Shown here: one piece after another, positions 73 through 60,010 of the stretch
How the letters are laid out: each line of letters opens with the position of its first letter
How positions within the stretch are numbered: position 1 is the stretch's first letter
NCBI GenBank assembly: GCA_009602725.1
Contig: WELB01000074.1
Location: forward strand, 422,189 to 486,188
DNA: 64,000 bases
Origin: Spirogloea muscicola
Taxonomy: Eukaryota > Streptophyta > Zygnematophyceae > Spirogloeales > Spirogloeaceae
Direction: 5' to 3'
Notes under the pieces: generated by a model
Database searches by the model: none
What the model saw: the letters and a program-made list of their open reading frames with translations, nothing else
Told to the model about the DNA's origin: nothing
Made by a program: the position numbers and the translations under genes

Positions 73-1199
73 GGCGGCGGCACCTGGCGGCCCGCCTGCC
101 CGGGGCGCCGACAGCCTCCCAGGGCTGTCGCGACGCGGCGCCGGAGCACCTGCAAGGGGCCGGCCGATGCACGCGGCACCGGTGGGAGGGTTTGATTTCG
201 ATCGAGCGGGCCCCTCCTCGTCCCGGTCGATGAAGAATCACCCTATTGCTTAGGCCAAGCCAGGAAAGCAAGCGCGACCAGACTAACTGGTGGCTGGGAG
301 AGGCCACCCCAAAAGAATAGAAGAAGTGGTTCTCCCAATGGGGGCAAGGGCTGTGAGAAGCCAGCCCGAGAAGAATTGACAAGGTTCGAAGGGGCCAGAT
401 TACGAGCAAAGCAGCGACTGCGGGGCCTGAAGAGGCTAAAAGAATGGACAAGGTCTGAAGGCCAGGGGACCCGCAACCAGGAACCAAGTTTCTCTGCCCT
501 GCGGCTGCTTAGCAGGGGTTACTGAGTGCTTCGTAGCGAGCACTTTCTCTCTTTCTTTCGTAGCTGCTTCGTTTCTTTTTTGTGCTTGTCTTTCTTAGTG
601 CTTCCCCTGGCCCCTTCTCGTACTGTGTTCATTCTTTATAAAGAGCAAGCGCGGCCAGATTAACTGGTGGCTGGGAGAGGCCAGCCCAAAAGAATGGACA
701 AGGTCTGAAGGAGCCGGAGTGCTAATGACTGAGACAGCAGTAAGCGGACTCTCAGTAACCTCCAGTCAGTAGATGCAAATCTGAATAGCTAGCGGGCGGA
801 AAGACGTCGCCTCTTTTTGGGCTGGCTTTTCCCAGCCCATATCCTCAATGGGCGAGCCCTTCTCTATCGTGATCGCTGTAGTCTCTTGCATAGATAGAGA
901 GACAGGCTCTTCCACTAGAGTGCGATGGCTGTCATTGGCCTGCCCACCAAAACTACTGAGCAAATTTCGAAGAGGCCTGCATAGCTGTGTGGTTTTGGCT
1001 CGGTAGGAAGTGCGCGCCCATAGAGAAGAGGGGCTGGAAGAAGAAGTGGCTCTCCCAATGGGGGCAAGGGCTGTGAGAAGCCAGCCCGAAAAGAATTGAC
1101 AAGGTTCGAAGGGGCCAAACTACGAGCTAAGCAGCGACTGCGGGGCCTGAAGAGGCTATGGCAGAACGGGGGAGGATGGAAGAGGGGCCGGTAGGATGA

Positions 1200-1650
1200 A
1201 ATCACTGAGTAAACACGAGTGAGGAGCCGCAAATCCGAAAGACTAGCAGCCGGAAAGCAATCCCCCTGACGAAAGCCAGAGGCTGCAGCTAGAGCACGGC
1301 CAGCACGTAGGTGCAAGGCGTGGGCCATGGACCGCTGGAGGGAGATGGAGAGAGGCGCATACGATAGATCTGAGCTAGCGAGCCAGCGGCGTTGAAGTCA
1401 GCCTGCTCACCTCGCCTGCAGGACACGGTGGGTCTCGCAAGCCGGGCCAAGAGGTCGAGCGACTGGGACCTGAAGGCCCCGTGCACATTGACGGCCAGGG
1501 GTACGAACTCGTTCCTGCCGGGTGGTCTGCGTACTTCCGTCGCTTTGCTGCGAGTGGCGTTCGCCGCAGCATGGCCAGCCCTCAAGGCAGAAAGCCCCGG
1601 ATGAGAACGGTCCACCTCATCTGTGGTGACAACAACGTCGGCGAGCCACT
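1200..1650 (-). mobile_element. LINE family A fragment, C-terminal endonuclease end
   Basis: On the minus strand this encodes the end of the same protein as the long LINE copy at 24210-25625. Shared pieces in order are DRSHP, FVPLAVNVHGA, AAGSLAQIYRMRL and an Ala-rich tail ending near a SDLRLLTR motif. The frame changes near 1325, just after the YRMRL block, compared with the long copy. It is 5'-truncated within the endonuclease domain, which is usual for LINEs. Its downstream 3' UTR-like part is the stem-loop module at 1035-1190, so coding end and stem-loop form one unit. Confidence 0.75.
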
Positions 1651-2449
1651 TCTCTCTTTGGCGCCTTTCGACCCTTTAGACCTTCTTCATTCTTTCTGGG
1701 CTGGCTCTCACTCTTCGGAAGAGCTCACTTCTTGTCCACAGTTCCAAGGGGCCCGAACAGCATTATAGCACACAGCGACTCAAGTGGCTAATGACGAGGT
1801 TCAAGGGCCAACACCACACAGCCATGCGAGTAGCTACGTGTGAAGCTTAATGATTAGTTTTTCCGACTCGTCAGCTAGCTACGCGCTTAGCGCTTCCCAG
1901 CCCCTTTGGACCTGCTGCTCTTTCTGACTAGAAGCAACTTGACCTTATTGAGCGTCCACTCGCAGAAGTCCTGGAGAGTAGTTTCGTGCTTCTTGCGCCT
2001 TCCAGCCTTTTCAGACCTTGTTTAATCCTTTCGGCTGGCCTCTAACAGCCATAGCCTTACGTTGGAAGAGCTGTCTTTTCCGGCCCTTTTTTTACCCTGT
2101 TCATTCTTTCCCTAGCCCCTTCGAAATTTTTACCCTGTTCATTCTTTCCCTAGCCCCTTCGGAAAAGCTAACTTCTCTTTCAGACCTTGTACGTTGCTTT
2201 GGCTGGCCATGTCCGAAGGGGCCGAACAGCGCTTTCCATTCAAAGGGTTGTTCTTTCTGGACCTTGTCCATCTCAACATCGAGAAAGAAGCAGCTCATCC
2301 GAAATGGGGCGAGGGCTGGGAAAGCGACCCAACAACAGACTGAACAAGGGACGAAGGAGCCGGAAACACGTGGGGACCCCTAAGGCGCCTGCTAAGTAAG
2401 CACTAGTTTATCTGATTGTTGGGCCGGCCTTCTAACAGTCATCACCCCC

Positions 2450-2790
2450 TTCTGCACCAGAAAGCAGGTCGAGCTTTAGCTGGTGGCATAAGGGCTTGTC
2501 ATTTGCCGTCCGGTGATGAGGAAAGAAAAGACGCTTCCAGGAGAGGGCGGTGGCTGTGAGATGCCAGCCCAGAGAAAAGAATACAGCTGTAATTTACCAA
2601 ATTCCGAAGGGGCCAGAGAAGCTCTGAAGTCAGGTGATGGGGCATCAGTTAGCGACCATCACATTTGGAAACGTGGTTACTGAGCGGGTCAGCTAACAGC
2701 GGGTGATGTACATCTGTTCATGTGCTTGCCCTTGTACCTACCCATTCAGGCCCTCTATCACTCAATGCAATTGCCATTCTTTCTGGACTA
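2450..2790 (+). mobile_element. LINE family B 3' tail interrupted by a nested insertion
   Basis: The sequence at 2450-2518 and 2633-2790 matches the end of the family B LINE at about 50205-50390: a GCACCAGAAAGC block, an AGCGACC block, a terminal ...GGTTACTGAGCGGGTCA segment, then GTGCTTGCC. The two halves are separated by 2519-2632, a stem-loop repeat in the opposite orientation. The insert is flanked by GGTGATG at 2512-2518 and again at 2633-2639, consistent with a target-site duplication. The tail therefore predates the insert. Confidence 0.7.
2519..2632 (-). mobile_element. Nested 114-bp LINE 3'-end copy with 7-bp flanking repeats
   Basis: A short element with the core GGCTGTGAGATGCCAGCC and the side block CGCTTCCAGGAGAGGGCGG. 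Relatives with the same side block lie at about 42605-42660 and 59160-59215. It is flanked by identical 7-bp direct repeats (GGTGATG). It sits inside a family B LINE tail whose uninterrupted form can be read at about 50260-50290. In LINE orientation it runs on the minus strand, with the stem-loop near its 3' end. Confidence 0.65.
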
Positions 2791-3062
2791 AGCTTCCGGC
2801 CCTTTCAATCCTTGTACACTCCTTAGAGCTCGGAATTAACAAGATCCCAGTCCCTGTAGTTTCTTGCATAATTTTGTGATCTTGGCTCTTTCCAGCCCTT
2901 TGAACCTGGTCAATTCTTTCTGGGCTGGGCTTTCAGAGTTCCCGCCTATTTGGAAGACTAAGTGGCGAAGCTTTGGAAGAGCTCACTTCTTCTTTTGGGC
3001 TGGCCTCACAGCCATTGCCTCACGGTAGAAGAGCTGTTTCTTTCGTTCAAGTCCTTGTACAA

Positions 3063-3290
3063 TCCGCATGCGCCTGTCCATCTCCCCTACCGCATGCGCC
3101 TGTCCATCTCCCTTCTCCATAGGGAGAGCCACTTCTTCAGCGAAGAAATTGCTCGCCCATCAGCGCTCCATGGCCCACTCCTTGCACCTGCGTGCTGGCC
3201 GCAGCAGCCTCTGGCTCTCGTCAGGGGGATTGCTTTCCGGCAGCTAGTGTGTCGGATTTGAGGCTCCTCACTCGTAGTGATTGAGTGCTT
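3063..3290 (+). mobile_element. LINE family A C-terminal fragment
   Basis: The plus strand carries YRMRL-type coding sequence, present twice in tandem at about 3066-3115. It continues with the Ala-rich MAHSLHLRAG-like segment and ends in a SDLRLLTR-like segment at about 3250-3280. This matches the end of the LINE at 24210-25625. The fragment is scrambled by small indels and part of a stem-loop module is inserted at about 3115-3150. Confidence 0.6.
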
Positions 3291-3560
3291 CATCCTGCCC
3301 CAGTTCTGGGCTAGCGCTGGTGGCCCCTTCGTAGTATGGCCCCTTCGAACCTTGTCACTTTTTTTGGGGCTCGCTGTTCACAGCCCTTGCCCCCCTTTTG
3401 GGGCGAACCTCGTCTCCTTTGGGCTGGCCACTCACAGCCATTGCCTTACATTGAAAGAGCAGTTGCATTCGATTGTCTTTTTTCGAAGAGCTTCTCACCT
3501 TCCCAAGTCTTAGGGCCCCGCGCCAGCCCCCTCCGGCGGCGGCGGCGGGCGGCGGCGGCC

Positions 3561-11127: not shown

Positions 11128-14100
11128 ATGCCCGTGTTCAGCGCCTTCCGGGCCGCCGGCTACGTCGCCGACGGCGTGCCCGCGGCCGTGCAGCGGCGCG
11201 GCCGCGAGGCCTTCGTCACCGCCAGCGTCGGCAAGGCCTGGCAGATCTTCAACGTGGGCAACCACTTAATCCCACGAGACGCCCGCCCCCTCTCCGCCCT
11301 CCCTCTGCCTGACCCGCCTTCTTCTCAATCAGGAGCTCCGCCCTCCTCCTCCGCTGCATATGTGTTGGCGTTGCTTGGCTGTGTAGCCAGTGTAGCCAGC
11401 TGCTTTACTACAGAAGATTTGTCAAGAAGATGGCCGAGCTCGCATCCGCCGCGGGCTTGACGGCCGGCCATCCCTCTGCCGCGCGTGTGCAGGCCTCTAA
11501 GCTCAACTTGGTCTTTGTGGGTGAGCTCTCTCGCTCCGGCGATTCCGACGAGACGAGCACGCCTCCCTCCTCCCCTCGAGAATGCAACCCCGTGCTATCT
11601 ACCCTTGCGCCTGGGCGTGGCTGCTCGGCAGCCTCGCCGCCGCAGCGCGGAGGCCTCACGTCAACGACGTTGCACAGCAAGAAGCGAGGTTGGCCGTTTC
11701 TTAACTTAGCCCCCATGCCGGGTGGGTGGGTGCTCGGCAGGCCCGCAGCTGCCAAAGACCATCCGGGCGCTGGCGTCGTGGCGGGACTTCACGTTTGCAG
11801 CACACGGCCGCAACGTTGCAGTCTTTAATCGCGCGCACCTGGTGCGCACACGGCGTCCGGCCACCGCCGCCTCTGCCTCGCCACAGCACTTACTCGCCCC
11901 GCTGCTGCCTCACTCAGTTGATGCACGATGTTAGTTGAGAACATGTCTGAGGGCGACCTGAAGCACTCAGGGTGTCACTGTGGATATGCAAACCAAAGCT
12001 ATGAAAGCCTAAAACCATACATACACAGTTGAGATGAGCAACAATTGCATCTCGGCGGCAAATAACACGATCTAACAATTGGGGCTGCCGCTCCAGGTAG
12101 CCACTTGGAGTGCACACACAGGCCGCATCGTGGCGCTGCTGGTCTTTGGTGACTACCTGCTCAGTGTTGGCGAGGACCGCCGCTTGGTTGTGTGGCACGC
12201 TGCCAAGGCTGGCGAGCAGTCGGCGCCCGTGAAGGAGCTCCACCTGGGCGACGGCTTCAGCCCAACATGCATCATGCACCCCGACACGTACCTCAACAAG
12301 GTGCGTCCTCCTACTGCTTCTGTGGTCATATCAGTCGCTTGACATCCATCACCTAGTCCTTTACGGTTATTGTCCGATATAGGGTTCAGGGCTTGGACTC
12401 ATACCTCTAGGGGTCAGGGTCGGGGTTTGAGAATTGAATTTGAGGATAAAGCGGTCTATATTTGATGGGTCTGGAACTCAACACGCTCGCTGGCGCCAAG
12501 ACAGGATATAGGGTCATAGAGGTCATGAGTCTTACGTTATTGCCGAATGCAGTAGCTGCGGTTCCTGTGACCAGCGGCGAGACGCTGCAAAGGTCAAGGG
12601 CAGTGGACTGCTCTCGTGCGCTGCTACGCATGTGTTGACTGTCTGTGTGCGCTCATTGGCCCAGGTTCTGCTGGGCAGCCAAGAGGGCAAGCTCCAGCTT
12701 TGGAACGTCCTGAGCGGCCAGATGGTCTTTGAGTTTGCTGCGCCAGCAACCAGTGCGGCCGCTGTCACCTGCCTGGTGCCGTCGCCCGCCTTGGACGTGG
12801 TGGGTGTCGGCCACGCCAACGGCGCCGTCTGCGTGCTCAACATCAAGTACAACGAGGCCGTGATGGAGTTCAGGCACACCACCCCAGGGGCTGTCACGTC
12901 GCTCTCTTTCAGAACGGGTGCGCCTCCTAGGGAGATGACAAGCCCTTATGACTCTGATTTGCAAGCCATGATCACCATTACTTGACTTGATGTCAGTCTG
13001 AAACCCAGAGGATCACGACTGGAAATGCTCATGACGAGCAGTCACAGTGGTCTTTAGGGTTTAGGGTTTACTTGTTTCTTAGTAGATGCTGCTAACATGC
13101 TGCTACGTGCTTTGTGGAGGTCATGCAGATGGCCAGCCGTTCCTTGCGGCAGGGACAGTGTCGGGCATGATCACCGTCTGGCACCTGGAAAAGCGCAAGC
13201 TCCAGACAGTGGTCAAAGATGCGCACGACGCGCCTGTCACGTCGCTGCACTTCTTTGCAGGCGAGCCAGTGCTCCTGTCCTTGTCGCCAGACAATTCAAT
13301 CAAGGTGCGCGGGGCCTGTCACTGAAGTGCAACAAAGCTCGTTTCACCTTAAGCATTGCCTTGAAAGGACTTGCCTTGTGCATAACTTCAAGCCGGGCCC
13401 TGGGCTTGCATCTGCGCAGATGTGGATCTTCGACACACTGGATGGGGACGCCCGGCTCCTGCGTTTCCGCAGTGGCCACAGCGCGCCTCCAACATGCATC
13501 AGGTGCTGCAAAGATGATAGACCACAGAAGCTTGAATGCGTTTTGTGGGTCACCATATATATATAGCTGCACGTACACTCCAGCATATTACTGCATATTA
13601 CTGGGTTGTACTGGGACTTTGGAAGTCCTAGTCATGGTTAGTGAATATTGAGAGGCGGTCATGTTTAGTGAGTATGAGAGGCCAATGCTGCCTGCTTTGG
13701 TGCACTTGATTGCTGTGCTGCATCTGTTGGCAGCTGGCATTGCTGTTGAGGTTCTTCTAGGCAATGTTTGCCTCATGTACTTACTGCTCTGCACCCAATG
13801 ATGTGTGCCGGGCTTTGGGGCAGCTATTACGGCGAGGGAAGGCACATACTCTCAGCCGGACAGGACAGGGCTTTCCGCTTGTTCTCAACCATCCAGGTCT
13901 GAGCGCAAATACCCTTGTGTTAGCCTGGCTGCTGGAAAGCTTGTCGAGCACCCTCGTCAAATAAGGAAGTCACGTGCAAAGCAAGCCTTGGCTGTCTTTG
14001 CAGGCGCTTGCACCCTCCATGCTTGTCCTGGGGCTTTGATTTAAATATTAAAGCGCTTCGCTGTCTCGATAACGCTTGCATACTTCCATACGCTTGTGGT

Positions 14101-19150: not shown

Positions 19151-20000
19151 CTTCTCGGCAGCTTCATTGGCTCTTTGGATTCCATTCTTTTTGGGCTGGC
19201 CTTTGCCAGCCCCTCTTCTCTATGGGCGAGCACTTTCTCCTGGAAAGAAATAGAAGGCGCGCGGTGCGCATGACATTGAAAGGGAGGCCAATCATGGCAT
19301 TACAAATATCCTTTCAACTGGGTAATGAGCTGGCTAAGGGGGACACTGATATCCCCGATTGAGAACAAAGAGTGAGCCCTGGAAGCGCCTTCCTCCCAGG
19401 TTACTGAGTAATATGTAGCTGCTTGGTTTCTTGTTGTGCTTGTTTTTTTAGCGCTTCCCCCGGCCCCCATTCTCGTACTTCGTTCCTTCTATTTTGGGCT
19501 GGCTTTTCCAGCCCCTATCCTCAATGGGCGAGCCCTTTCTTCGTTCTCCCATCAGAAGCGAGAGAGGGCCCGCGGTGCACATGAAATTGAAAAAGAGGCC
19601 AATTCTAGCCTTACAAATGACCTGTTAACTGGGTAACGAGCTGGCTAAGGGGGACACTAATATCCCCGAGTGAGCACATGCATATCTGACAAGCTATCCT
19701 GAGGCGCCAAACCACCACCACGGAAGCCATTAGCCTGGGCTAATGCACGAGCAGCACGCTGGTGTATCGCGAGTGCCTGGGAGCGCTGTTGACTCAATGA
19801 TAGCATTCTATAGCATGCAACGATGGCTTACGGGACACTAGAATGCCCCAAGCTACCCGCCCGACTACGTCGGCGGGCATCGACATGCGGTGCCAGGCGA
19901 TGGAGGAGGGAAGACCACTTCGTTCCGTAGCCGCCGTAGATGTCCATGGCGCATAGGAAGAAGTGGTCGCCCCGGGGGTGGTCATTGTAGTGCCATCAGA
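19150..20000. repeat. LINE debris with two copies of a family C tail
   Basis: Stem-loop modules (GGGCTGGC...GCCAGCCCC then ..ATGGGCGAGC) lie at about 19190-19240 and 19495-19545 in reverse orientation. Each is followed by a module with GCGCGCGGTGCGCATGA, GGGAGGCCAAT and a GGGGACACTAATATCCCC inverted repeat, at about 19255-19370 and 19562-19700. On the minus strand the second reads the C-terminal motif LSDMHVLTRG, so these are LINE family C ends. Comparable tails lie at about 23815-23940 and 42690-42845. No host gene is visible. Confidence 0.65.
19830..19994 (-). mobile_element. LINE endonuclease-domain fragment, divergent family
   Basis: On the minus strand the frame reads HYNDHPRGDHFF followed by AMDIYGGYGTKW. 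This aligns with the YTDHPREDEFFPLAID plus GALGARW segment of the family A LINE endonuclease at about 25160-25235. The fragment is only about 55 codons and is a decayed relic of a family distinct from A and B. Confidence 0.5.
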
Positions 20001-20330: not shown

Positions 20331-20618
20331 NNNNNNNNNNNNNNNNNNNNNNNNNNNNNNNNNNNNNNNNNNNNNNNNNNNNNNNNNNNNNNNNNNNNNN
20401 NNNNNNNNNNNNNNNNNNNNNNNNNNNNNNNNNNNNNNNNNNNNNNNNNNNNNNNNNNNNNNNNNNNNNNNNNNNNNNNNNNNNNNNNNNNNNNNNNNNN
20501 NNNNNNNNNNNNNNNNNNNNNNNNNNNNNNNNNNNNNNNNNNNNNNNNNNNNNNNNNNNNNNNNNNNNNNNNNNNNNNNNNNNNNNNNNNNNNNNNNNNN
20601 NNNNNNNNNNNNNNNNNN
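20331..20618. other. Assembly gap (288 N)
   Basis: A run of N inside a GC-rich region just upstream of the first readable exon of the alpha/beta-hydrolase gene. It probably hides that gene's start codon and first exon. Confidence 0.98.
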
Positions 20619-22395: not shown

Positions 22396-24205
22396 CGATG
22401 CCTGGATTGTTGCCCACCTGCGGGCGGAGGATGTGGTCACGAGCCGCGTCGTCGTCCACCCAGGTGGTGTTTTGTGGCTATGCCACATCCTTTCAAGCGT
22501 GCTCCCCTGTCCAAAGGGCCCTGCAGACTCCTAGCTCAGTAGTGCAGGTACGTACATGACCAGGTCGAGGAGGCCTTCTCGACCCAGATTCAGCGCCAGC
22601 AGTTGCATGCATGCTTCTGCGCAGCGTGGTCAAAATGCCACACGAAGGACATGTTTTAGGTGGCCCATCTGGTAGCGCATAGTCCCGGGTCCGCAACTAA
22701 CTCTCTCCTTAGGCCTCATGTGCTGAATGACAATTTTCTGCGGTAGTTTTTGCACTGTTTTGGTGCTATGGATTTGTGGCCCAATTTGTTGCCTCCTTCA
22801 CACTGTGCTGCGTTCTCGTTGCACGTGTGTGTAGCTTGGAGGACAGCCGCAGGGCTAGGGCCTCGTTCCTCCGCCCTTTTTCTGACAATTGAACAGCGTG
22901 ATCAATTTCTGCCACGCTCCAATGCTTCCAGCGCTGTCGCCGCCGTGATAGGAGCTGCGCAAGCAGCAAGCCCGACGTGAGGCAAAAAGAGAAGGAAACG
23001 AAGAAGTGGCTCTCCCAATGAGGGCAAGGGCTGTGATAAGCCAGCCCGAACAAAGAAGTGACAAGGTTCGAAGGGGCCAAAGTACGAAGGGGCCAAAAGC
23101 GATAAATCAGAACTGGGTTGGGATAGGATAAATGACTCAATAACTACGAGTGAGCAGCCGCTCATCCGAAAGACTAGCTGCCGGAAAGCAATCCCCCTTT
23201 CGAAAGCGAGAGGCTGCAGCGAGAGGCAAGAAGGCCAAGTACAAGGCCAAGCAGAAGGAAGGAGGGAGGCCACACGAGTGTCAGAAAGCCTGAGCGGCCA
23301 AGCACAGGAGACGGTGGGAGAAGACGCGCGGTGCGCATGGTTGGAAAGGGAGGACCAAGGCGAGCCCGAAGAAGAAATGCGGCTGCTGATATAAAGCGGC
23401 TGTAAAGGCCAGCCAGATGAATTCGTGTCTTCATGACGGACCCTCAGGCTGGGCAGACAGGGCGCTCTTAGTACCCCCGTGTCAGCAGTAGGAAGTCAGG
23501 TGAGCTGAGGGGAGGAAGAGCAACCCTGCTGCAAGCCAGAGGCTGCTGCAAGAGCGCGACCGGCTCGGCGATGCAAAGCAAGCGCTTGGGACCCCTGTAA
23601 GCCGTTTTTGCCTTCAATTGTTTCAAATACGCGAAAATTTACCTGTAGGGGCATAGATAGACGCATGCGGTAGCAGGACAAAAGGCCCATATGCACCGAG
23701 CCTCTAGTAAGGTGCTTATCAGGAAGGAAAGGGAGGACCAAGCTGAGGCCGACGAAACGGCTCGCTCAGTGGAAGGCAAATGGCTTTGAGAGGCCAGCCC
23801 AAAAGAGAAGGCGCGTGGTGCGCACGACATTAAGTGAGGCCAATTCTAGCCTTACAAATGTCCCGTTACGGGCTAATGAGCTAGCTAAGGAGGACACTAA
23901 TATTCCCGAGTGAGCACATGCATATCTGACAAGCTAAGCGGGGAAACGGAGAGTGCCACGCTTGGGGCCACACAGAAGCGAAGCCCTTGGCTGAGAGGGA
24001 GGGGAGAAGGCGCGCGGTGCGCATGAAGATGGGAAGATGCAGGCCAATGCAGTGTTCAGGCGAAAAGCTAGTGCCACAGTGAGCCAGAACCGGCGCTCTA
24101 CAGCTGCAGTCGCTTCGGAGGGGCGGCGGCGGCGGCAAGAGGAAAGGAAGGGCTCGCCCATTGAGGATAGGGGCTGGGAAAGCCAGCCCCAAAAGAAGAG
24201 GTACA
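22396..24205. repeat. Intergenic region, unique to about 22985, then LINE debris
   Basis: 22396-22985 shows no gene. From about 22990 to 23085 there is a full stem-loop module of the first subfamily. It is followed at 23140-23230 by the minus-strand family A C-terminus, and at 23480-23670 by another minus-strand scrap with an inverted YRMRL-like end. At 23765-23810 lies a stem-loop, at 23815-23940 a family C tail and at 24145-24205 another stem-loop. The insertions are stacked in several orientations. Confidence 0.65.
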
Positions 24206-24209
24206 AAGT

Positions 24210-25625
24210 TGTGCCGACGCAGGCATGGTGACGAGCCTGGCGAGGGCTTCCCCCAGTCGCCTGCCGCTCTTCACCAGGCGACGCTACCCCTCAGATACGG
24301 CGGTCTCGGCTTGCGCCCGCTCGTCCGTTCCTGCCGGGCAGCGTACCTCGGCAGCTGGGCGCAGACAGCCGCCTCCGTGGCCCAACGTTTCTTGGTCCAC
24401 GGCCAGCGTGCGCTGGAGCAGGCGGTGGTGGAGGTAGACACGGGAGTGCTGCCTTTCCAGGCGTCGCTACGCTCCGCCCACCAGGAGCTGCTCGCGGTGC
24501 ACCCGGACCTGGCGGGCCAGGCGGTCTCCTTTGCGCACCTCGCGCACACCGCCGACCTGCGCGTCCAAGCGCGCTTCGCAGCCGCAATGGACAAGGCAGC
24601 CTTCACCACCGCCTTGCTCCAGCTCCCGGAGGCCGACCTGGGCGGGCGCGCGCGGTTCCACTCGGGCTCCTCCCCGGGGGCCGCGGCGTGGCTCCAGGCC
24701 CTCCCCGTCAATGAAGCCCTCACACTCCCGGACGAGGTGTTCCGCAGTGCCGTCCACCGGCTCCTGGGCCTGCCGCCGCCATGTCTCCAGGGTGTGCAAC
24801 AGTGTGAATGTGGCGAGCGAGGGGCCGAGCCTGGGGAGCTGGCCGCTCATGTTCTGCGCTGTTCCCACGGCGGAAAGCGGACAGCGGCCCACGACCATCT
24901 CCGGGATGCCATGCATGGCATCCTTGTGGAGGCTGGCTTCTCGGTGGCAGCCGAGAATTCTGCCGTCATGCCGCTCCAGCAACGGGCCGACGGTCTCCAC
25001 GCTCGTCGCGTGGACCTTGTGGCCACCCCACCAGCAGGCGGGCCACGTCTTCTCCTGGACATGGTGACCACTGACTCCTATGACCGCTCACACCCAATCC
25101 AGTGTGCCACCAAGGCTGGGTATGCGGTAGCCTGCGCCGCTCGGGCCAAGGAGCTAGATTATACAGATCACCCGCGGGAAGACGAGTTCTTCCCGCTCGC
25201 CATCGATACGCACGGGGCGCTGGGCGCTCGGTGGCTCGAGCTGCTCAACCAGCTCTCACGTCACGCCATTGTCCGCCGCTTCCATGGGGAGCCGGTGGAC
25301 TCCCATGCAGCAGGGTCGCTAGCGCAGGTGTACCGCATGCGCTTGACCGTCTCGCTGCAGAGGACTATGGCCCGCGCGCTGCACCTGCGTGCAGGCAGAG
25401 CCCTCGCTGCTGCCTCTGGCTCTGGCCAGGGGACCCGCTTCCAGGAACCCAGTCTCTCTGACCCTGAGGCTGGTTAGCAGGGGTTACTGAGTGCTTCGTA
25501 GCTGCTTCGTTTCGTCGTAGCGCTTGTTGTTCTTCGTACTTCCCCTGGCCCTTTCTCGTCCTTTGTTCATTCTTTTCTGGGCTGGCTTTTTCCAGCCCCT
25601 ATCCTCAATGGGCGAGCCCTTCTAT
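24210..25625 (+). mobile_element. LINE family A, longest copy: RT end, zinc knuckle and restriction-like endonuclease
   Basis: An open frame of more than 400 codons runs to the stop at 25475-25477. In order it has the end of a reverse transcriptase (LPLRYGGLGLRP, then AAYLGSW), a cysteine/histidine knuckle (CECG, then AAHVLRC), a helix HDHLRDAM, and a restriction-like endonuclease core. That core is RRVDLV, 14 residues, then LLLDMVTTDSY with two Asp, followed by TKAGYAVACA. The YRMRL and Ala-rich tail follow. This order is that of non-LTR retrotransposons with a C-terminal PD-(D/E)XK-type endonuclease (R2, NeSL, CRE-like). The copy is 5'-truncated within RT. Near the end its frame leaves the family's ...LVSRGY-stop, which continues in another frame to about 25488. 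The 3' tail ends with a stem-loop module at about 25565-25622. Confidence 0.85.
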
Positions 25626-34820: not shown

Positions 34821-35413
34821 TATGGCCGCCGCCGCCGGGCGCGGGCCCTGGGAGCCGTAAGATTATCTCAGGCTGCGGCGGGCCGGTGCGGGCCAGCTCG
34901 GCGGCGGCGGCGGCGGCCGGCCATTGCCGAGCCCCGCNNNNNNNNNNNNNNNNNNNNNNNNNNNNNNNNNNNNNNNNNNNNNNNNNNNNNNNNNNNNNNN
35001 NNNNNNNNNNNNNNNNNNNNNNNNNNNNNNNNNNNNNNNNNNNNNNNNNNNNNNNNNNNNNNNNNNNNNNNNNNNNNNNNNNNNNNNNNNNNNNNNNNNN
35101 NNNNNNNNNNNNNNNNNNNNNNNNNNNNNNNNNNNNNNNNNNNNNNNNNNNNNNNNNNNNNNNNNNNNNNNNNNNNNNNNNNNNNNNNNNNNNNNNNNNN
35201 NNNNNNNNNNNNNNNNNNNNNNNNNNNNNNNNNNNNNNNNNNNNNNNNNNNNNNNNNNNNNNNNNNNNNNNNNNNNNNNNNNNNNNNNNNNNNNNNNNNN
35301 NNNNNNNNNNNNNNNNNNNNNNNNNNNNNNNNNNNNNNNNNNNNNNNNNNNNNNNNNNNNNNNNNNNNNNNNNNNNNNNNNNNNNNNNNNNNNNNNNNNN
35401 NNNNNNNNNNNNN
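34821..35413. other. Divergent 5' region containing an assembly gap (476 N, 34938-35413)
   Basis: Only about 117 bases are readable, all GC-rich. The N run most likely contains the promoters of COG6 and the epimerase gene and the first exon(s) of the epimerase. Confidence 0.9.
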
Positions 35414-41637: not shown

Positions 41638-43897
41638 AGTGTTTTGCTTCATGCCATTGAAAGGGTAAATTGCACCTAGACTGATTGTTAGTGTTTCTTA
41701 TGGCGAGTGATAGTAATATGCCTAGTGATACGCCTGCTGTGGCAAAGCTGATGCTTGAGCCAGTTCTAGGTCTTTTCAGTAGAAGCTAGTCATAGGTCTT
41801 CTCAACAGAAGCTTTGTATATAGCCAAGAAAGTTGCAGCGCTCCTTCACGTCATCAACCTGTATATACAACCGGGTAAGGACAGATTGTACAGTACACTA
41901 CTCGTATTGGCTGAGCCTGCCTCCCCTGCTCAAGGACTGGCAACAAAGGTGCTGCAGGAGTGTGAGCAAACATGTCATTCTGTCCGATTACCATCCGAAG
42001 CTCGCCCAATGATGCATTCACAAGCACGACACTTTCAGCAGTGCTTGTGCGAGAGCGGATTAGGAGATGCCCTTCAGAAGAGGGCAGTGGCTCTGGAGGG
42101 CCAAATCAAAGGAGTGAACATGGTCGACGAGAAAATCATTATGTTAAAGGACAAGCATAATTTGCTTCTGCCATGGATAGCCCTCAATTCTTTGGACGGG
42201 AGGATCACAACTTACTGCTACGTATTTCGACCTAAGTGAGGGTTACTGAGCAGCTGCTTGTTGTAGCCACTTTTCTGACGAATCGGATGTGCTCTCTGTA
42301 GAACGTCTTCTACCTTCGCCTAGTCTGCTGGTTTGGCCTGGCATTATGCAGCAACCGCCTCCTTAGGAAAAGCTTCTTTCGTCTGAGACTTATTGTGAGG
42401 GGGTTTGGGTCTAGAAACGGAATAATATGTAGGTCTTTAAGGTCTCCTCTCCTCAGACAAAAGAAGCTCTCGAAAAGGAGGCGGCGATGAAGGTCGACTT
42501 GGAAAGATGGAAGTTGACAAGGGGGGAAGAAGCTTCCCCAGAGGGCGATGGCTGCGAAGGGCTAGCCTAGGCTAGCCTTAAGTGACGCTTTCAGAAGGAA
42601 TGCAATGTTCCTGGGCTGGCCTCTTACAGCCACCGCCCTCTCCTGGAAGCGTCCTTTTCTTCGCAGGCTAATAACTTCCGTGGTGGTGGTTTGGCTCCTC
42701 AGCTGAGCTTGTCAGATATGCATGTGCTCACTCGGGGATACATAGTGTCCCCCTTAGCTAGCTCGTTATCCCGTAACAGGACATTTGTAAGGATAGAATT
42801 GGCCTCCCTTTCAATCTCATGCGCACCGCGCGCTCCTTCTCTCTCGTTCTTCTAGAAGAGTAAGGCTCTTCCAGTAGAGGTCGATGGCTGTGATTGGCCA
42901 GCCCAGAAAAAGATAAGAACCAAGTACGAAGGGGCTAGGAAAGCGCACGGCGACCAGGGTGGCGGGCGCTGTGAGAAGCCGCTGAAACACGCAACTAAGC
43001 AAGTAACCCAAACCCAAACCCTAACCCTAATCCGATGGCCAGCCCACGGGGAACGAGCAAGTTCCTGGAAGGCGACATGCCGGGAGTGGCACGGCGAGCG
43101 CACCCACGTCGTCTCGCGTGGGCGACAAGACGGGCTCGCAGATAAGCCATACGTCGGAGCAGCCAGTCGCGCTCCCCTGAACCGTGGATTGTTTCTCCCC
43201 CCGCTGCGGCAGGCCGGCGCTCCCGCACCCCCAACTAATCGACGGGGGCCGGCCAATGGCGCGGGAGGTCCCAACCCCCCTCCAGCCTCCCCCCCTCCCC
43301 ATCATCACTTCAATCCCCAACCAGCCCCCTCCCCTTGTGGCACCCCACGCGAAGCGCGCTCCAGGAGCCCGCCACGTGCCGCTGATTCAGCCCACGGCAG
43401 CTCCGACCTGGCTCCCGTCGTCACAACCATCGCCGCCGGGTAGTCAGTCCGCCGCCGCCGCCACCTCCGCCGCCGCCGCCTCCGCCCCCGCCGCCGCCGT
43501 TGCCGCCTCTGCCNCCGCCGCCTGCTCGCAGCCGAGAGGGGAGTCTCCAGTGGAGCCGGCGCCGGGCGGGGTGCGGATCGGTGCGATAGCTACGAGCGCA
43601 ACGTCCCGCTGCTGTTGCCGTCGCCACTGCGCTCGCTGCTGCTTCTCCGCCACTGCTGCCGCTGCCGCCGCTCTGCCGATCCGTCGCCACTACCGCCGTC
43701 GCCGTCGCCGCACGGAGGGGTGAGTCCGTGCGTTCTAATCGGCAGGTCCGGTTGCCGCGACCAGGCCACTAAGATAGTCTCTGAGACGATTGAGTATTTG
43801 CCGTTACGTCGCAGCAAGCCGCTGCAGCCCCGGCGCGATCTCCTGCCAGGGCTGACGCTGACGTTCTGACGCAGCCCCTCGCCCGGAGCTGCAGCTC
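41638..43897. other. Intergenic region: unique to about 42400, LINE debris to 43030, then GC-rich leader
   Basis: 41638-42400 contains no recognisable gene. From 42530 to 42935 there are stem-loop copies (42530-42575, 42605-42660, 42862-42935) and a family C LINE tail (42690-42845) that reads LSDMHVLTRGY-stop on the plus strand. A telomere-like CCCAAA/CCCTAA run lies at 43006-43032. From 43100 to 43897 the DNA is GC-rich with GCC triplet runs and an undetermined base at 43514, probably the promoter and 5' UTR of the aminotransferase gene. Confidence 0.55.
43006..43032 (-). repeat. Telomere-like CCCAAA/CCCTAA run
   Basis: The run is two CCCAAA units followed by two CCCTAA units. Its reverse complement is TTAGGG plus TTTGGG. 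It differs from the TTTAGGG form seen at 13053-13070. It lies between LINE debris and a GC-rich promoter and may be a scrap of healed telomeric sequence. Confidence 0.7.
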
Positions 43898-46975: not shown

Positions 46976-48285
46976 CAACGTGCTCTTTCAGACCATCAGT
47001 GTGGGTGCTCGGATTGCCCGCTCGCCTACTCTTGACAGCAGACCTCTGATGACGAAAATCTCTCTGTGACACCTCATACTGCTATTGATGTTATTAGAAG
47101 ACCTTGCTGCATTGCAATTGACCTCTCTGCACGTGTGCACCTGTGCCAGGGTCATACATTGCTGAATTGTCACGATTTGTTGGAGGTACATATGTGCTGC
47201 AGGGATGAATTCGACTTGCATGTCACCATCACTGCTGCTCGAGCAAGCTTGCCTTCTGCATCCTTTGGCATTCAATGAGCACCGAAGCTGCTGTAACTCT
47301 GCAGCATGAGGTGCTAGCTAGCTGGCCTTTCCAAGCTGCCTGCTGCTTGAAGATGAGGGCTGAGCAACTACCTGTGGATGGCCAGCCACTGCCAGCCCAA
47401 CCTGGTGGCCAATATAGTTGCCTCCAACATTTCAGAGACTCGCTTATGGCCCTCTTGACCTGCTATTCGGATGCCCTCCTGGGCCTTCTCTCCCAGCTCC
47501 AGCAGATCGTGTGTACAGTAAGTGCAGGCTATGCAGTGCAAGAAGTTGTTTAGGCAGTTGCAATTAGCAACTCCAACAAGAATGTGACACTAATTTGTAA
47601 GGTGCTATTTGTGGAAGTACAGATATTTTCGGCCTAGCCTTCCACTGCCCCTTGTTTTTGACAGCACAATATGGCTTGAATAAAGACCACTCAGTGGTGA
47701 GGCAATCCAGCAATATCGAGCACTTCGCAGCCTGCATGGAAGTACTTTTGGATTGTATACGGTGCTTCCGCGTTGAAGGGTGGAAAGGGTAATGACCAGC
47801 TTGTGGAGTCCTGCACCTGAGCTGGTAATGAGCGAAATGTCAATTTAACGGATAGGGATGAGAGTGGCTGGGCCCCAAAAGCCTTTTGGTTTTGAGTGAG
47901 ACAAGGCCATCTATTGGTGATTTCTAGAGGGATCCTGTGGTCATATGGAGGACCTCCGCTTGGGCGGAGAAGCTCGGCCCTCTGCCAATCATAGGCGAGG
48001 CAGAAGAACGGGAACAGCGTATTTTCTGTCCTGCAGCTCCTCAGTCAACTAAGACAGTGATAGTGATGAGGGCCTTCACTCACCCGTGCACCTGCAGTCT
48101 GAATCAGTCACTGGGTTGCAAAGCGACTGCCACAACAGGCACTGAGGGCTGCAACCAATGTTGGCTGCTCACGTATCATACTTCAGTCTCGCGAGCCACC
48201 CCACCTCAGCACCTGGCTGGTCGTGACAGTCGCTCCTATGACATCAGCACTTCCTGAACGCTCGGTGCCTTTTGGGTCTTGTGTC
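46976..48285. other. Intergenic region downstream of the aminotransferase, no gene recognised
   Basis: The first part is likely 3' UTR. Only short open frames without family resemblance occur. No stem-loop repeats occur until about 48290. Confidence 0.55.
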
Positions 48286-49440
48286 CTGCTACCGCATGCG
48301 TGTGTCTGTGTCCTTACAGCGGTTCCAAGCGCTTGCTTTGCACCGCCGAGCCGGTTGCGCATTTGCAGCAGCCTCTGGCTTGCGCTGCGGCGTTGCTCTT
48401 CCTCCCCTCAGCTAATCTGACTCCCTGCTGCTGACACGGGGGTACTAAGAAGAAGGGCTCGCCCATTGGTCTTATGTAGTGTTTTGTGGTGTAGTCCTTT
48501 TTCGGCACCTCTTTCTTTGGCTTTGGACATTGTCCATTCTTTTTTGGCTGGCTTTGCCAGCCCCTCTTCTCTATGAGCGAGCACTTCCTTCATCGAGGAT
48601 AGGGGCTGGAAAAAGAGAAAGGGCTCGCCCACTGAGGATAGGGGCTGGAAAAGCCAGCCCAAAAAAGAAGGAACAAAGTACGAGAAGGGGGCCAGGGGAA
48701 GCGCTAAGGAAAACAAGCACAACAAGAAACAAAAGAAGAAAGTGCTCGCCCATAGAGAAGAGGGGCTGGCAATGCCAGTCCAAAAAAGAATGGACAATGT
48801 CCAAAGCCAAAGAAAGAGGAGCCGGAAAAAGGACTACACTACAAAACACTGCAAAATGCGTAGACGATGCACAGGGAAGCTCAGTACCCACGAGTGAGCA
48901 ACATCAGGTCTGAGTAGCTCGCTGCAGGGAAAGATGGCACTCCGCCGAGACCCAGAGGCGGCGGCCATACCACGGCCTGCTCGCGTGTGGACGGCGTGGG
49001 CAAGGGAGCGTTGAAGCGATACCGCCAGGCGCATGTGGAAGACTCGGGCGAGCGAACCGGCGTCGTTGAAGCCGGGCATCGCCCCCACAGCGCAGCTACG
49101 TATTACTCAGTAACCCCTGCTAAGCAGCCTCAGGTCAGAGAAGCTAGGCTCCTGGAAGTAGAAAGGGCTCGCCCATTGAGGATAGGGGCTGGAAAAGCCA
49201 GCCCAAAAATGAGGAACAAAGTACGAGAAGGGGGCCAGGGGAAGCGCTAAGAAAAACAAGCACAACAAGAAACAAAGCAGCTGCGTACTACTCAGTAACC
49301 CCTGCCAAGCAGCCTCAGGTCAGAGAAGCTAGGCTCCTGGAAGTGGGTCCCCTGGCCAGAGCCAGAGGCAGCGCGTGTAAAAAGAAGGGCTCGCCCGTTG
49401 TAAAAATGCCCTTCTCCACTCCTTTGGGCTGGCCTCTCCC
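48286..49440. repeat. LINE debris cluster with a local duplication
   Basis: 48290-48450 (+) carries a family A-like C-terminal scrap beginning at a YRMRV-like site. Stem-loop copies follow at about 48525-48580 (reverse), 48590-48700, 48740-48840 and 49160-49275 (forward). 48890-49090 (-) holds a family A C-terminus with AGSLARVFHMRLAV. A LINE tail block of about 68 bp occurs at 49093-49160 and again at 49278-49345, separated by one stem-loop module. No host gene is seen. Confidence 0.65.
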
Positions 49441-49449
49441 AGCTAGGAG

Positions 49450-50440
49450 GCTGCCAGAGATTCACAACAATCCAAGGAGCCTGGCAAGGCTTACTTCCCT
49501 CGCCACACCTGGAGCCACAGACTGGATCACCTCACACGCCGTGGCCAGCGCCTTCAGCATTAGCTCCGAGGCCTTTCGGACGCTGCTTCAACTCTTCCTC
49601 GGCCTCCCACCTAACTGCCTGATTGGGGTGCGCCAGTGTGAGTGCGGCTTCCGTGCAGAGGGTGCTGAGCTCGCCACTCACATGCTACGATGCCCCACTG
49701 GACCAGATGTGGTGGGCATCCACAACCTCCTCCGTGATGCTCTGGCGGGTTTGATGCGCGACGCCGGGTACCGTGCGATCGTGGAAGTGAACAACATCAT
49801 GCCTATCACCACGGATGCCCAGGGACGTCATCATCGCCGCACACTTGACATTGTGGGCGTGCAACCTGGTGGAGGACCACGGGCTTTGGTGGATGTTGTG
49901 GTTACGGAGGCCTATAAAGGTCCAGCATCGACACACATCGCTGGCCACGCAGTGGGCAGTGCTGAACAAAGAAAGTTGCAGCACTACTCCGGTTACCCCC
50001 GATGTGATCAGCTCTTGCCAGCGGCAATCGATCTTTGGCTGCTTAGGTCCTCGTTTCCTTACTCTCCTTCAAAACATAGCCAATCTAGGCTACACACGAC
50101 ATGCAGATGTGTTCCCGGCTGAGATGGGCTTGCCAGCTGCATATCTGTCGTTCTTGCGACGACGAGTTTCGGCCTGTTTGCAGCGTGCTCAGGCTAATGC
50201 TTTGCACCAGAAAGCTGGGCGAGCTCTAGTTGGTGGCAGAGGGGCTTCGTATCTGCCATCTAGTATTCAGGCATCGGTTAGCGACCTTTATGTCTTGACC
50301 CGTGGTTTCTGAGCGGGTCAATCTACTGTAGGTTATGTAGGTCTTAAGATGTGCTTGCCTTTGTACTTGGCCATTTGGCCTTCGTTTGTTTCAAACACAC
50401 GAATTTTCCAGCCACCAGTTCATCTGGCCACGCTTGCTCT
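49450..50440 (+). mobile_element. LINE family B: zinc knuckle and restriction-like endonuclease end
   Basis: The plus strand encodes a homologue of the family A C-terminus: LLQLFLGLPPNCL, a CECGF...ATHMLRC knuckle, HNLLRDALAGLMRDAGY, then RRTLDIV, 14 residues and ALVDVVVTEAY, the same Asp-Asp spacing as family A. It then has QHYSGYPRCDQLLPAAIDL. The frame shifts at about 50040 and the rest continues in the next frame through FLRRRVSACLQRAQANALH to VSDLYVLTRGF-stop at 50310-50312. The tail has TTGGCCATTTGGCC and ends near 50440 with a stem-loop-type end. The copy is 5'-truncated before the RT core. A second, minus-strand copy lies at 57645-58010. Confidence 0.8.
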
Positions 50441-51230
50441 CAAAAAGGAGGAAGTGGCTCTCCCAACGGGGGCAAGGGCTGTGAGTAGCCAGCCCGAAAA
50501 ATAATTGACAAGGTTCGAAGGGGCCAAAGTACGAGCTAAGCTCAAAAAGGCAGCCCCAAAAAGAATGAACCAAGGAAGAGCGCCCTGTCTGCCCTGTCTC
50601 GTGGTATGGCCCCTTCGAACCTTGTCAATTCTTTTCGGGCTCGCTGTCCTCTTTCTCTGTCTGCCCAGCCTGGTGGGAACACCTGGCTGGCCTCTTACAG
50701 CCACTCTTTTGATATCAGCAGCCGCAAACTTTCTCTTCACTTGCGTAGCCTCCGGCTCCGTCATCAACACCTTCTGTATGTGAGGCTCGGATGTGAGGCC
50801 CCTTCTCGTCCTTTGTTCATTCCTTTTTTGGGCTGGCTTTTTCCATGTTGTAGTGTAGTCCTTTCTCCGGCTCCTCTTGCTTTGGCTTTGGACATTGTCC
50901 ATTCTTTTTTGGGCTGGCGTGGCCAGCCCCTCTTTTCTATGGGCGCGCTTTTCTCTTTTTCCAGCCCCTATCCTCAATGGGCGAGCCCTTTCTTCTTCTT
51001 CTTTCTTCTGATTTGAGGCTCCTCACGCGTAACTACGGAGTGGTCCATCCTCCCCCGTTCTGCCACACATCTTCAGGCCCCGCAGTCGCTGCTTAGCTCG
51101 TAGTTTGGCCCCTTCGAACCTTGTCAATTCTTTTCGGGCTGGCTTCTCACAGCCCTTGCCCCCGTTGGGAGAGCCACTTCTTCTTCCGTATGCACCTGGC
51201 CGGCTTTTACCACCCAGCTATCTTCATGCT
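50441..51230. repeat. Stacked stem-loop copies upstream of the PDI-like gene
   Basis: Copies lie at about 50447-50530 (forward), 50598-50650, 50685-50715, 50800-50850, 50890-50985 and 51070-51185 (reverse). At about 51008-51040 the plus strand reads SDLRLLTRNY, a family A LINE C-terminus, directly followed by its stem-loop tail. This shows the coding end and stem-loop belong to one transcript unit. Confidence 0.7.
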
Positions 51231-57644: not shown

Positions 57645-58010
57645 TATGTGTGTTTGAACAAAGGCCAAAATGGCCAAGTACAAAGGCAAGCACATCTTAT
57701 GACGTACATCACCCAATGCAGATTGACCCGCTCAGCAACTACGGGTCAATACATGAAGGTCGCTAATCGATGCCTGAAGACCAGGTGGCAGAGTCGAAGC
57801 TCTTCTGCCACCAACTAAAGCTCGCCCAGCTTTCTGGTGCAAAGCGTGAGCCTGAGCACGTTGCAAACAGGCCGACACTCGTCCTCACAAGAATGACAGA
57901 TATGCAGCTGGCAAGCCCATCTCTGCCAGAAGCATAACTGCACGATGTGCATAGCGTAGATTGGCGATATTCTGATGGAGAGTGTGGAAACGAGGACCTA
58001 AACAGAAGGA
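57645..58010 (-). mobile_element. LINE family B, 5'-truncated minus-strand copy
   Basis: Reading from 58010 downwards the sequence matches the end of the family B LINE at about 50040-50400. It includes SSFPHSPSEY (SSFPYSPSKH in the other copy), an AWASFSWW-like stretch corresponding to the GRALVGGR region in another frame, the AGCGACC...GACCC end (SDLHVLTR) and a tail with TTGGCCATTTTGGCC. It is shifted by small indels and is non-functional. Truncation at about 58010 fits normal LINE 5' truncation. Confidence 0.75.
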
Positions 58011-58700
58011 TCAAGAGGATGTGGTCAGCAATGCTGGCCGGCTGGGAGATGTCCTCATCCTACTTGGCATAGCATTGCAGCAAGTGAAGAGGAGCCTTCC
58101 TCCAAAGAGACATTGTGGGGCTTGCAGCGACCCTGGCACAATTGGCACTCTCCCTAAAGTAATTACAGGAGCAATATAGATAGTGCCGCCAACGAGGACA
58201 GCGCCAGCCATGACCAGCGCGCCAAGTATCTTGAGGAGATGCCATGAATCTTGAATTGCCACTTACTGCAACATCAGCACCGAAGAGTCATGTGGTCCTT
58301 GTGCCCTTCATTACATTCAGGGCCATTCTGGATCCGGCCTTGCACAATCTTTTCTGCTATATTAGTTTTCAAGGTTAGGGTCGGTGTATTTGACCTTGTG
58401 AGGCAGAATCTGCAGGCGCTGCTGTAATGAGGTTTGTACCTTTGCAGTCCTGAGAAATCGGCTTCATGTTGGTCGGTTACCTTTGCATAATCCTCGTGCA
58501 TACGTCAGACACACATGCGTACTCCCTTGAAACTTCCTGGGAAGTCTTTGCGACACAACCCCAAGGTCACTTGATTGCTGCATAGATCTGCTATGCCCCT
58601 ACTTCTATACACGCCCCTATGGGTACGTGTCTTCCCCTTGGGGTAAAGCACAAATTCATTCCGACATTTCTCGTACTTCTAGGATACGTGCTCTATGCAG
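58011..58700. other. Spacer with one hydrophobic minus-strand frame
   Basis: A minus-strand frame at 58011-58262 encodes about 83 residues with a hydrophobic stretch (GALVMAGAVLVGGTIYIA). No start context, family or homologous neighbour supports it as a gene. Nothing else was recognised until the stem-loop copies from about 58705. Confidence 0.35.
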
Positions 58701-60010
58701 CTCGAATGAGAGAAAGTCCTTTCAGCGGAAGCGGTGGCTGGGATAAGGCCAGCCCAAAAAGGAGTTGGAGAAGGAAAAGCGGGAAGCCCCGCCATCGTTT
58801 CGACAACAGAACTACATAGAAAGGAGCAAGCTCTTCCAAAAGGAGCGAAATGTGTGAGAGGCCGGCCCAATAAGGAAGAGCATAGAGCTCTTGTGAGCGC
58901 GTCGGTATTGTACGTGCTCACTCGTGGGTAAAGGCCTTCTTCAGCTTGCACACACACTATTGTTGTGCCCCACTTTGCTTACAAAAGTGGCTCTCCGAAA
59001 AGGGGGAAAGGGCTGTGAACAGCCAGCCCGAAAAGCAAGGCAAGCGCGGCCAGATTAACTGGTTGCTGGGGGAGGCCAGCCCAGAAGAATGGACAAGGTC
59101 CGAAGAATAGGGCTTCGGTTTATGTAATCCCAAGCTTGCTTGTACAGTGCATAGCCTTGAGAAGGAAGGATGCTTCCAGGAGAGGGCGGTGGCTGTGAGA
59201 GGCCAGCCCAGATTTGCTTGATTTGGCCTCCCTATTCATTCCATGCGCACACGGTGCCTTCTCTCTCGTTGGCTTGGCCAAGTAGCCGACACTGTTGCAG
59301 AAGACGAAGGGGAGACCGTACGCCGAAAGGCTGGGGGGGCCACTGTGGAGTCGCACAGTCGGGCGCGCCCGACCCCTTGAGCAGAGGAGAACATGGGGGC
59401 ACTGGGGAACATGCATAGGCGCAGTCGTGGGCCTGGAGCCCGTGGCCATGCGGGGGGGCCGTCGGCCTGCGGCCCAATGGCTGGGCCGTGCAGAAACAGA
59501 CGGGCCCACGTCACCGTAGACGGCGGTTGACGGCCGTCGAGGTCCAATGGGCGCCCACTGCTGGAGCCCCCGTCCGCGTCAGCGCACGGGCGGGCTGAGT
59601 CGCCCAGTGGGTCCCGGAAGCTTCCAGATGGTCGGCTGCGCGCAGGGAAGAAGTGGCTCTCCCAATGGGGGCAAGGGCTGTGAGAAGCCAGCCCGAAAAG
59701 AATTGACAAGGTTCGAAGGGGCCAAACTACGAGCTAAGCAGCGACTGCGGGGCCTTGAGAGGCTATGGTAGAACGGGGGAGGATGGACCACTTAGTAGTT
59801 ACGAGTGAGGAGCCTCACATCCGACAGACTAGCTGCCGGTAAACTATCCCCCTGACGAAAGCCGGAGGCCGCAGCGAGAGCACGGCCACCACGCAGATGC
59901 AAGGCGTGGGCCATGGACCGCTGGAGGGAGACGGACAAGCGCATACGATACACCTGAGCCCACGAGCCAGCGGCGTTGAAGTCAGCCGGCTCACCGCGCC
60001 TGCGGGACAC
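58701..60010. repeat. LINE debris cluster upstream of PI4K gamma
   Basis: Stem-loop copies lie at about 58705-58765, 58830-58870, 58985-59040, 59045-59105, 59160-59215 and 59640-59775. A LINE C-terminus reading SVLYVLTRG-stop lies at about 58898-58932 (+). A family A C-terminal fragment lies at 59790-60010 (-), reading AAGSWAQVYRMRLSV and ending in SDVRLLTRNY, with its stem-loop tail at 59640-59775. The unique sequence 59220-59640 shows no gene. Confidence 0.65.

Follow-up and report, generated by a model that had tools for sequence, protein, structure and literature searches.

The window examined here is a 64,000 nt stretch of contig WELB01000074.1 from Spirogloea muscicola (Zygnematophyceae); counts within it refer to both strands where stated. 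Partial Pfam gene calls place in it pieces of a GH14 beta-amylase, a redoxin-family protein, a methyltransferase and a PI3/PI4-kinase, and part of an arginine methyltransferase. Together with a TTTAGGG pair at 13054, these genes point to a nuclear genome of the green lineage. It also holds many copies of a short module built around a hairpin. Judged by sequence, this module is the 3′ tail of at least seven related families of long interspersed nuclear elements (LINEs), which holds for most, not all, of the LINE ends found here.

The module and its copies

The tail is about 80 nt long and consists of an upstream tract often ending in ATTCTTTT, a hairpin of the form GGGCTG...CAGCC, a family-specific second block and a CTTCTTC-like end. 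The pattern GGGCTGGCN{3,8}CAGCC has 26 matches on both strands, against a mean of 0.12 (largest 2) in 100 dinucleotide shuffles. These are 24 distinct loci, as those at 19193/19194 and 50911/50912 are each counted on both strands. A covariance model of 59 positions, trained on 25 copies and run with filters off, finds 40 places in the window at E<=1 and 30 at E<0.01, the latter being the 25 training rows and five others. All 30 fall into six clusters (0.26-3.5, 19.2-19.5, 23.0-25.6, 42.6-42.9, 48.5-51.2 and 58.7-59.7 kb). An earlier note on this DNA had proposed about 30 copies of one stem-loop plan in at least five subfamilies, and both counts agree with it; by second block we distinguish at least seven families (one a single copy), plus degenerate F10.

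The family names (F1-F10, A, B) were coined in this analysis. The second block is TTGGGAGAGCC in F1, ATGGGCGAGCCC in F2, TATGGGCGAGCAC in F3, CTGGAAGCG in F4, GGAAGAGC in F5 (TTGGAAGAGC at the copy 2020..2082) and ACCAGTTAATCTGGCCGCGC in F6, and F7 is the single copy. For F1 and F2, homology between copies stops about 25-28 nt beyond the 3′ arm of the hairpin, in the CTTCTTC-like end. The copies and LINE ends are as follows.

1039..1633 (-): F1 LINE 3′ end, with coding end 1633-1233, 3′ untranslated region (UTR), hairpin 1087-1069 and terminus ACTTCTTC (tblastn, covariance model)
59647..60010 (-): F1 LINE 3′ end with coding end, hairpin 59694-59676 (tblastn, covariance model)
51007..51183 (+): 5′-truncated F1 copy of 177 bp, hairpin 51136-51154, 10-bp low-complexity duplication CTTCTTCTTC
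320..438 (-): lone F1 copy of 119 bp within an F6 copy (267-319 + 439-461), immediately 5′ of its hairpin; ATTCTTTT duplicated (8 exact; 11 with one mismatch by blastn overlap)
50449..50541 (-): lone F1 copy of about 94 bp, 10-bp duplication CCTTTTTGAG; its target, read by eye, looks like the 5′ arm and loop of a degenerate hairpin
22992..23280 (-): F1 3′ end, hairpin 23047-23029
3153..3413 (+): F1 LINE 3′ end with degenerate hairpin (GGGGCTCGC...ACAGCCC), fused directly to the hairpin of an F5 copy
58982..59035 (-): F1 copy that begins some 6 nt 5′ of the hairpin; an F6 tail end comes before it
460..866 (+): F2 3′ end whose coding end (460-495) has tblastn E 0.43 and whose hairpin is at 819-837; broken at ~638-808 by a minus-strand F6 copy with a 5-bp duplication, AAAGA, not above control
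641..793 (-): F6 3′ end, hairpin 687-669, second block ACCAGTTAATCTGGCCGCGC
24210..25474 (+): LINE A, of F2, the longest LINE coding end; C-terminal part, 5′ truncated, with a CxCG...H...C knuckle and an R2-type domain resembling a restriction-like endonuclease (RLE); start approximate, adjoining an inverted F2 tail that ends at 24209
25539..25622 (+): F2 3′ tail with hairpin (GGGCTGGCTTTTTCCAGCCC), downstream of LINE A
19399..19541 (+): F2 3′ tail, hairpin 19496-19513
24144..24209 (-): lone F2 tail, duplication not above chance
49160..49372 (-): F2 3′ end with coding end, hairpin 49204-49187
48616..49158 (-): F2 3′ end made up of coding part 49158-49092 and tail 48733-48616 with hairpin 48660; an F3 LINE 3′ end (~49090-48735, hairpin 48781) lies between the two, duplication not above chance
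50797..50999 (+): F2 tail in pieces 50797-50845 and 50955-50999, with an F3 tail (~50846-50952) inside its hairpin and a 9-bp duplication CTTTTTCCA
48472..48591 (+): F3 tail, hairpin 48545-48563, by eye within a minus-strand F2 fragment; duplication not above chance
19153..19241 (+): F3 tail, hairpin 19193-19211, adjoining an inverted F8 end
2522..2573 (-): F4 tail, second block CTGGAAGCG
42611..42661 (+): F4 tail
59162..59212 (-): F4 tail
2020..2082 (+): F5 tail, second block TTGGAAGAGC (covariance model)
2985..3045 (+): F5 tail (covariance model)
3414..3471 (+): F5 tail beginning at the hairpin
42855..42929 (-): F5-like tail, CTGGAAGAGCC
58708..58767 (-): F7 tail, single copy (covariance model)
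23370..23719 (-): F10 LINE 3′ end whose coding end shows homology to 48243-48450; the degenerate hairpin TGGCTGGCCTTTACAGCC at 23415 is a weak model match (E 0.37)
49446..50406 (+): LINE B, 3′ part of a probable RLE-type LINE, with its own 3′ end lacking the module; within the hairpin of an F6 copy (49410-49443 + 50408-50440), 5-bp CCAGC repeat not above control
19543..19989 (-): F8 LINE 3′ end without the module; relatives of this 3′ end near 42834, 23810, 24009, 19256 and 23323

F8 LINE 3′ ends adjoin tails of different module families, tail to tail, at 19241-19260, 19541-19570, 25622-25696 and 42834-42855. We rejected the idea that they are a continuation of the module, since they adjoin modules of different families and occur elsewhere. 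A long near-palindrome surrounds an F4 tail at 42540-42670 (fold z -4.1; duplex -31.6 kcal/mol) and is perhaps two F4 tails in inverted orientation. Rfam gives three matches at E<=1, all below the gathering threshold, and the two that are microRNA-like were read as opposed tails forming a long inverted repeat.

Relatives of the module were sought in collections of viral contigs and genome contigs, and none was found; the sole pattern match there (L001) has no covariance-model match and looks like chance. A search of titles and abstract starts in the open-licence literature found no description of this tail among the matches listed. Hairpins in 3′ tails and shared tails are already known, including in green algae (SINEX/RandI; PMC3747384).

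Coding ends, truncated copies and the encoded protein

By tblastn, the long reading frame 24302-25474 is a relative of a second one, 49403-50285 (41% over 214 aa, and 33% over 83 aa in the next frame). The first of them, used as tblastn query, finds 11 places including both frames, the weakest at E 0.43. Seven of the 11 coding ends run into the module in the same orientation (25474, 1233, 59819, 48903, 49319, 3257 and 460-495, the last separated from it by a later insertion). These seven tails were picked without regard to the hairpin. Five have it intact (25579, 1087, 59694, 49204, 819), a sixth carries a single mismatch in an arm (48781, GGACTGG), and in the seventh it is degenerate (3366). 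Matches by blastn and repeat searches add the coding ends 23601-23466 (F10) and 793-748 (F6) upstream of the module. The readable LINE ends of the earlier note (25480-25622, 51008-51185 and, on the minus strand, 59835-59640 and 1240-1035), each said to be followed by the stem-loop, are borne out. Its view of the module as the 3′ end of several LINE families is likewise upheld by these seven coding ends and by the point past the 3′ arm at which F1 and F2 homology stops.

Many copies have no coding end. Copies of F1 share the end ACTTCTTC and differ in their starts (438, 50541, 51007 and farther upstream), which points to 5′ truncation, and split older copies that have contiguous relatives show insertion. 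Nine insertions, identified by looking for older copies that younger ones interrupt and then by reading, were compared with 3000 random placements. Four of them have exact junction repeats of 8-10 bp (ATTCTTTT, 8; CTTTTTCCA, 9; CCTTTTTGAG, 10; CTTCTTCTTC, 10 and of low complexity), each equalled in 34-45 of the 3000 placements. The lone copies thus look like 5′-truncated insertions, some with target-site duplications. Alternatively, they could be short interspersed nuclear elements (SINEs), an RNA polymerase III-type family with a borrowed LINE tail, as the SINEX elements of Chlamydomonas share the tails of RandI in a green alga (PMC3747384), and the many tails of 50-120 bp would suit such borrowing. 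However, ARAGORN finds no tRNA-like gene in the window, and the starts of the lone F1 copies differ inside the LINE 3′ UTR and have no common head (heads were examined for F1 alone), so that we hold a SINE origin to be quite improbable. The earlier note had offered both extreme 5′ truncation and SINEs borrowing the end; the former is supported and the latter is not.

The half-copy at 50957 was considered as a reverse transcriptase (RT) stop at the hairpin or a template jump and dropped, since its other half lies upstream of the F3 intruder with its 9-bp duplication. The half-copies at 1037(-) and 48609(-) also start at the hairpin 3′ arm, and their other halves were not found adjoining; for these two, such a stop or jump may still apply. 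At 23602-23651 a 52-bp insert splits the F10 coding end, and by eye it resembles a family B 3′ tail standing alone (GTTTCAAAYACRCGAA); LINEs without the module may likewise leave tail-only copies.

A zinc-knuckle pattern, CxCG...H...C, was read by eye in both proteins. An AlphaFold2 (AF2) model of 197 aa, built from three window sequences with the RLE part taken at 24740-25330, has the order helix-strand-strand-strand-helix-strand, which is the strand order expected for a PD-(D/E)xK nuclease. AF2 on LINE A alone was unusable (predicted local confidence, pLDDT, 37). In a Foldseek search against PDB, the six best matches of the joint model are all R2 retrotransposon proteins (E 2.5e-5 to 2.4e-3), from zebra finch, the turtle Platysternon and silk moth, plus R2 entries without a species in the title. 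Because the best structural matches are to R2 and the knuckle pattern occurs in both proteins, the elements are most likely RLE-type LINEs; on this model we would probably place them in the R2 group and its relatives, and we give no clade as RT was not seen.

The hairpin and its likely recognition

The hairpin can form, and the alignments suggest that its letters are kept, not its pairing alone. Alignment A2 has 34 rows including degenerate copies, and A5 is 25 of those with the degenerate ones left out, 24 of them distinct. Of the 24 distinct A5 rows, 23-24 have the inner pairs (GGCTG with CAGCC), as do 31-32 of the 34 A2 rows, and 86% of the A5 paired cells pair in register, against 35-64% when the arms are slid. 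In 12 of 24 rows the G-C pair beside the loop is missing with its 5′ G kept. When five families with a hairpin are compared, identity is 80% in the hairpin segment (57% shuffled), 64% in the segment just before it and 67% in that just after it (56% and 55% shuffled), and the UTR farther upstream is at the shuffled level. This comparison used fixed offsets and hairpin-bearing representatives, and its coding-end row (57% vs 57% shuffled) does not align the coding ends fairly.

We consider it probable that the module is the 3′-terminal tail of related non-long-terminal-repeat retrotransposons with a C-terminal R2-type RLE, and that its hairpin is recognised by protein. The tail would close the element RNA. 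The element protein would bind the nearly fixed hairpin stem as a common recognition feature, the loop or second block would give family specificity, and the protein would then nick a pyrimidine-rich target and prime on the CUUCUUC end. Reverse transcription would usually stop early and leave tail-only copies, some with short target-site duplications. We infer that the hairpin is likely recognised in target-primed reverse transcription, with the protein binding the hairpin and the RNA end pairing with the target. For zebrafish LINEs, PMC4176376 describes recognition that "can be bipartite", with a general contact to the stem and a loop contact that is specific; a nearly fixed stem with a variable loop and second block fits such recognition.

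Not every LINE end here carries the module. Four of the 11 coding ends have no module downstream, namely 50285 and 57816 (family B, with another 3′ end), 19684 (F8, with a CATGCGCACCGCGCGCCTTC-like 3′ end) and 48379 (F10, cut by another element, and its relative 23601-23466 is followed by the degenerate hairpin at 23415); that LINEs always end in the module therefore fails within the window, families B and F8 ending otherwise. A number of results weigh against the reading given above. The LINE C-terminus has no match by sequence in Pfam or PDB, and the RT motif [FY][AMVLI]DD[ILVMF] has none in six frames of the window, the absence of the latter being expected since the copies are 5′ truncated. 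The AF2 model is poor (pLDDT 49, predicted template modelling score, pTM, 0.49), and its R2 matches reach template modelling (TM) scores of only 0.31-0.35 with root-mean-square deviations of 7-14 A. Two of the nine insertions have 5-bp repeats (reached by 555 and 651 of 3000 controls) and three have 3-4 bp only (1739-2833 of 3000), nothing above chance, so that the duplications looked for at lone copies are present for part of them; some RLE LINEs are without target-site duplications, e.g. the arthropod Utopia (PMC4640811).

The stem adds to these points. As the rows of A2 and A5 were chosen by hairpin-like patterns, and those of A5 without degenerate copies, its conservation is inflated. The earlier note had looked to compensatory changes in the arms, and there are none beyond chance in a core that is nearly fixed: RNAalifold on 34 rows has none of four predicted pairs changed on both sides, the 24 distinct A5 rows have no pair so changed, and 417 of 500 shuffles do as well as the one A2 pair with two compensated cells. 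Outer positions frequently fail to pair (columns 19-27 in 12 of 24 and columns 13-33 in 10 of 24 A5 rows), so the 5′ G is retained even without a partner. Minimum free energy z-scores of eight tails run from -0.4 to -2.7, with one at -4.1, and are modest for most. Taken literally, this goes against the earlier note, which named arms that do not co-vary as a refutation; since the stem core scarcely varies, we take the failure to find covariation as uninformative and not as a refutation.

Single-sequence folds of several tails contain an outer helix between the second block and upstream sequence, which could mean that the tail belongs to a larger fold around the hairpin, specific to each family. 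In a swap test on ten representative tails, however, own pairs were no better than mixed ones (mean -13.8 against -15.3 kcal/mol, permutation p 0.95). The outer helix and a co-evolving second block were accordingly rejected as candidates, and we see hardly any chance for such a fold.

Nested insertions and known systems

Eight nested insertions have a readable target, six of them from the split-copy search and two by eye, and five of the eight lie at or beside the target hairpin:

Just 5′ of the target hairpin: F1 in F6; F6 in F2
In the loop or 3′ arm of the target hairpin: F3 in F2; LINE B in F6
In a degenerate hairpin loop: F1
Elsewhere in the target: F3 twice, once in an F2 UTR and once in an F2 spacer; a B-tail (by eye) in the F10 coding end

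For a hairpin zone taking up 17.5% of the target, five of eight corresponds to p ~0.006; with a zone of 25% p is 0.03, and with 35% it is 0.11. The test is post hoc and small and assumes the zone sizes. Of 80 raw motif matches to family 3′ ends, eight were flagged as having module pieces beside them, and by eye these are about 40 distinct ends with seven flagged. With a missed join at 3413 added, eight of about 40 compares with a background of 8.5% in clusters (p 0.018) and 3% in the window (p 2e-5), a weak result merged by hand.

These insertions, two of them read by eye, could also speak for conservation of the GGGCTGGC/CAGCC block as DNA, either as a nuclease target or as a protein-binding palindrome, and not as RNA structure, and arms that are nearly fixed without compensatory change would suit this. 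On the other hand, every module family has the hairpin close to the 3′ end of the element, a place with a known need for RNA recognition, and 72 of the 80 raw 3′-end motif matches (chance and double counts included) have no module piece within 24 nt downstream. We regard a block kept purely as DNA as unlikely. It is also conceivable, if rather doubtful, that the hairpin is used twice, as an RNA handle for template uptake and as a DNA landing pad for new tails, giving self-seeding nests. New tails would then go to old tails of other families, and the pyrimidine tracts at the hairpin foot (ATTCTTTT) and loop (CTTTTTCC) would match the CUUCUUC end of the element. Such homing to tails would explain a stem that is fixed in sequence and does not co-vary and, if true, would be a simple route for a LINE to confine itself to nests between genes.

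Elsewhere in the window, 29300-29355 holds a perfect inverted repeat (25-nt arms, 6-nt loop) that seems to have nothing to do with the module, and short interstitial telomere-like repeats occur at 13054-13066 (a TTTAGGG pair) and 43000-43030 (AACCCAAACCCTAACCC). The window begins with a run of 30 G (1-30) and has N runs at 20331-20618 and 34938-35413; single Ns in GC-rich repeats suggest assembly trouble.

With R2 the elements share the C-terminal knuckle, read by eye, and the RLE-like fold for which R2 proteins are the best matches. The R2 protein recognises the 3′ part of its RNA. PDB entries among the matches are titled 'Structure of R2 with 5'ORF and 3'UTR' and 'with 3'UTR and DNA'. Insertion into 28S ribosomal DNA (rDNA), a feature of the R2 clade, was not found: the six clusters lie among protein-gene pieces, and no rRNA is among the Rfam matches. 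The copies here thus differ from R2 in being scattered and nested outside rDNA, with a tail of one short hairpin and a pyrimidine end, and with RT not seen. Like RandI/Dualen and SINEX of Chlamydomonas, these are LINEs of the green lineage with tails common to short elements, and SINEX-2_CR ends in (CTTT)n (PMC3747384); Dualen encodes both an apurinic/apyrimidinic endonuclease and an RLE (PMC4640811), and the window contains no N-terminal parts of the elements studied here. The green-algal RandI families end in (ATT)n or (CTATTT)n (PMC3747384), whereas the end here is CTTCTTC-like without a clear repeat, and no SINE head was seen. Zepp of Chlorella and Coccomyxa also inserts into existing copies, giving arrays of mostly 3′ ends (PMC8226300), but it is an L1-clade element with poly(A) (PMC3747384; PMC8226300), and the elements here are probably RLE-type, show no poly(A) end and form small clusters among genes.

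The tails closest in plan are of the stringent type (UnaL2, ZfL2-1/2 and the land-plant L1 hairpin), in which a 3′ stem-loop is common to LINEs and short copies (PMC3747384; PMC4176376). In land-plant L1 the stem varies with compensatory changes and the loop (UCU) and 3′ flank (CGAG) are conserved (PMC3747384). Here, unlike in plant L1, the stem is nearly fixed and the flank varies, yet F2 and F3 carry CGAG in the second block. A stringent-type mechanism is the best reading of the tail.

R2-based gene insertion relies on enzymes of the RLE LINE kind (PMC11331408), and what such a protein needs at the 3′ end of its RNA is of practical interest for that use. Several families in one genome with a nearly fixed stem and a swapped loop and second block would amount to a natural experiment on which part of the tail is general and which is specific.

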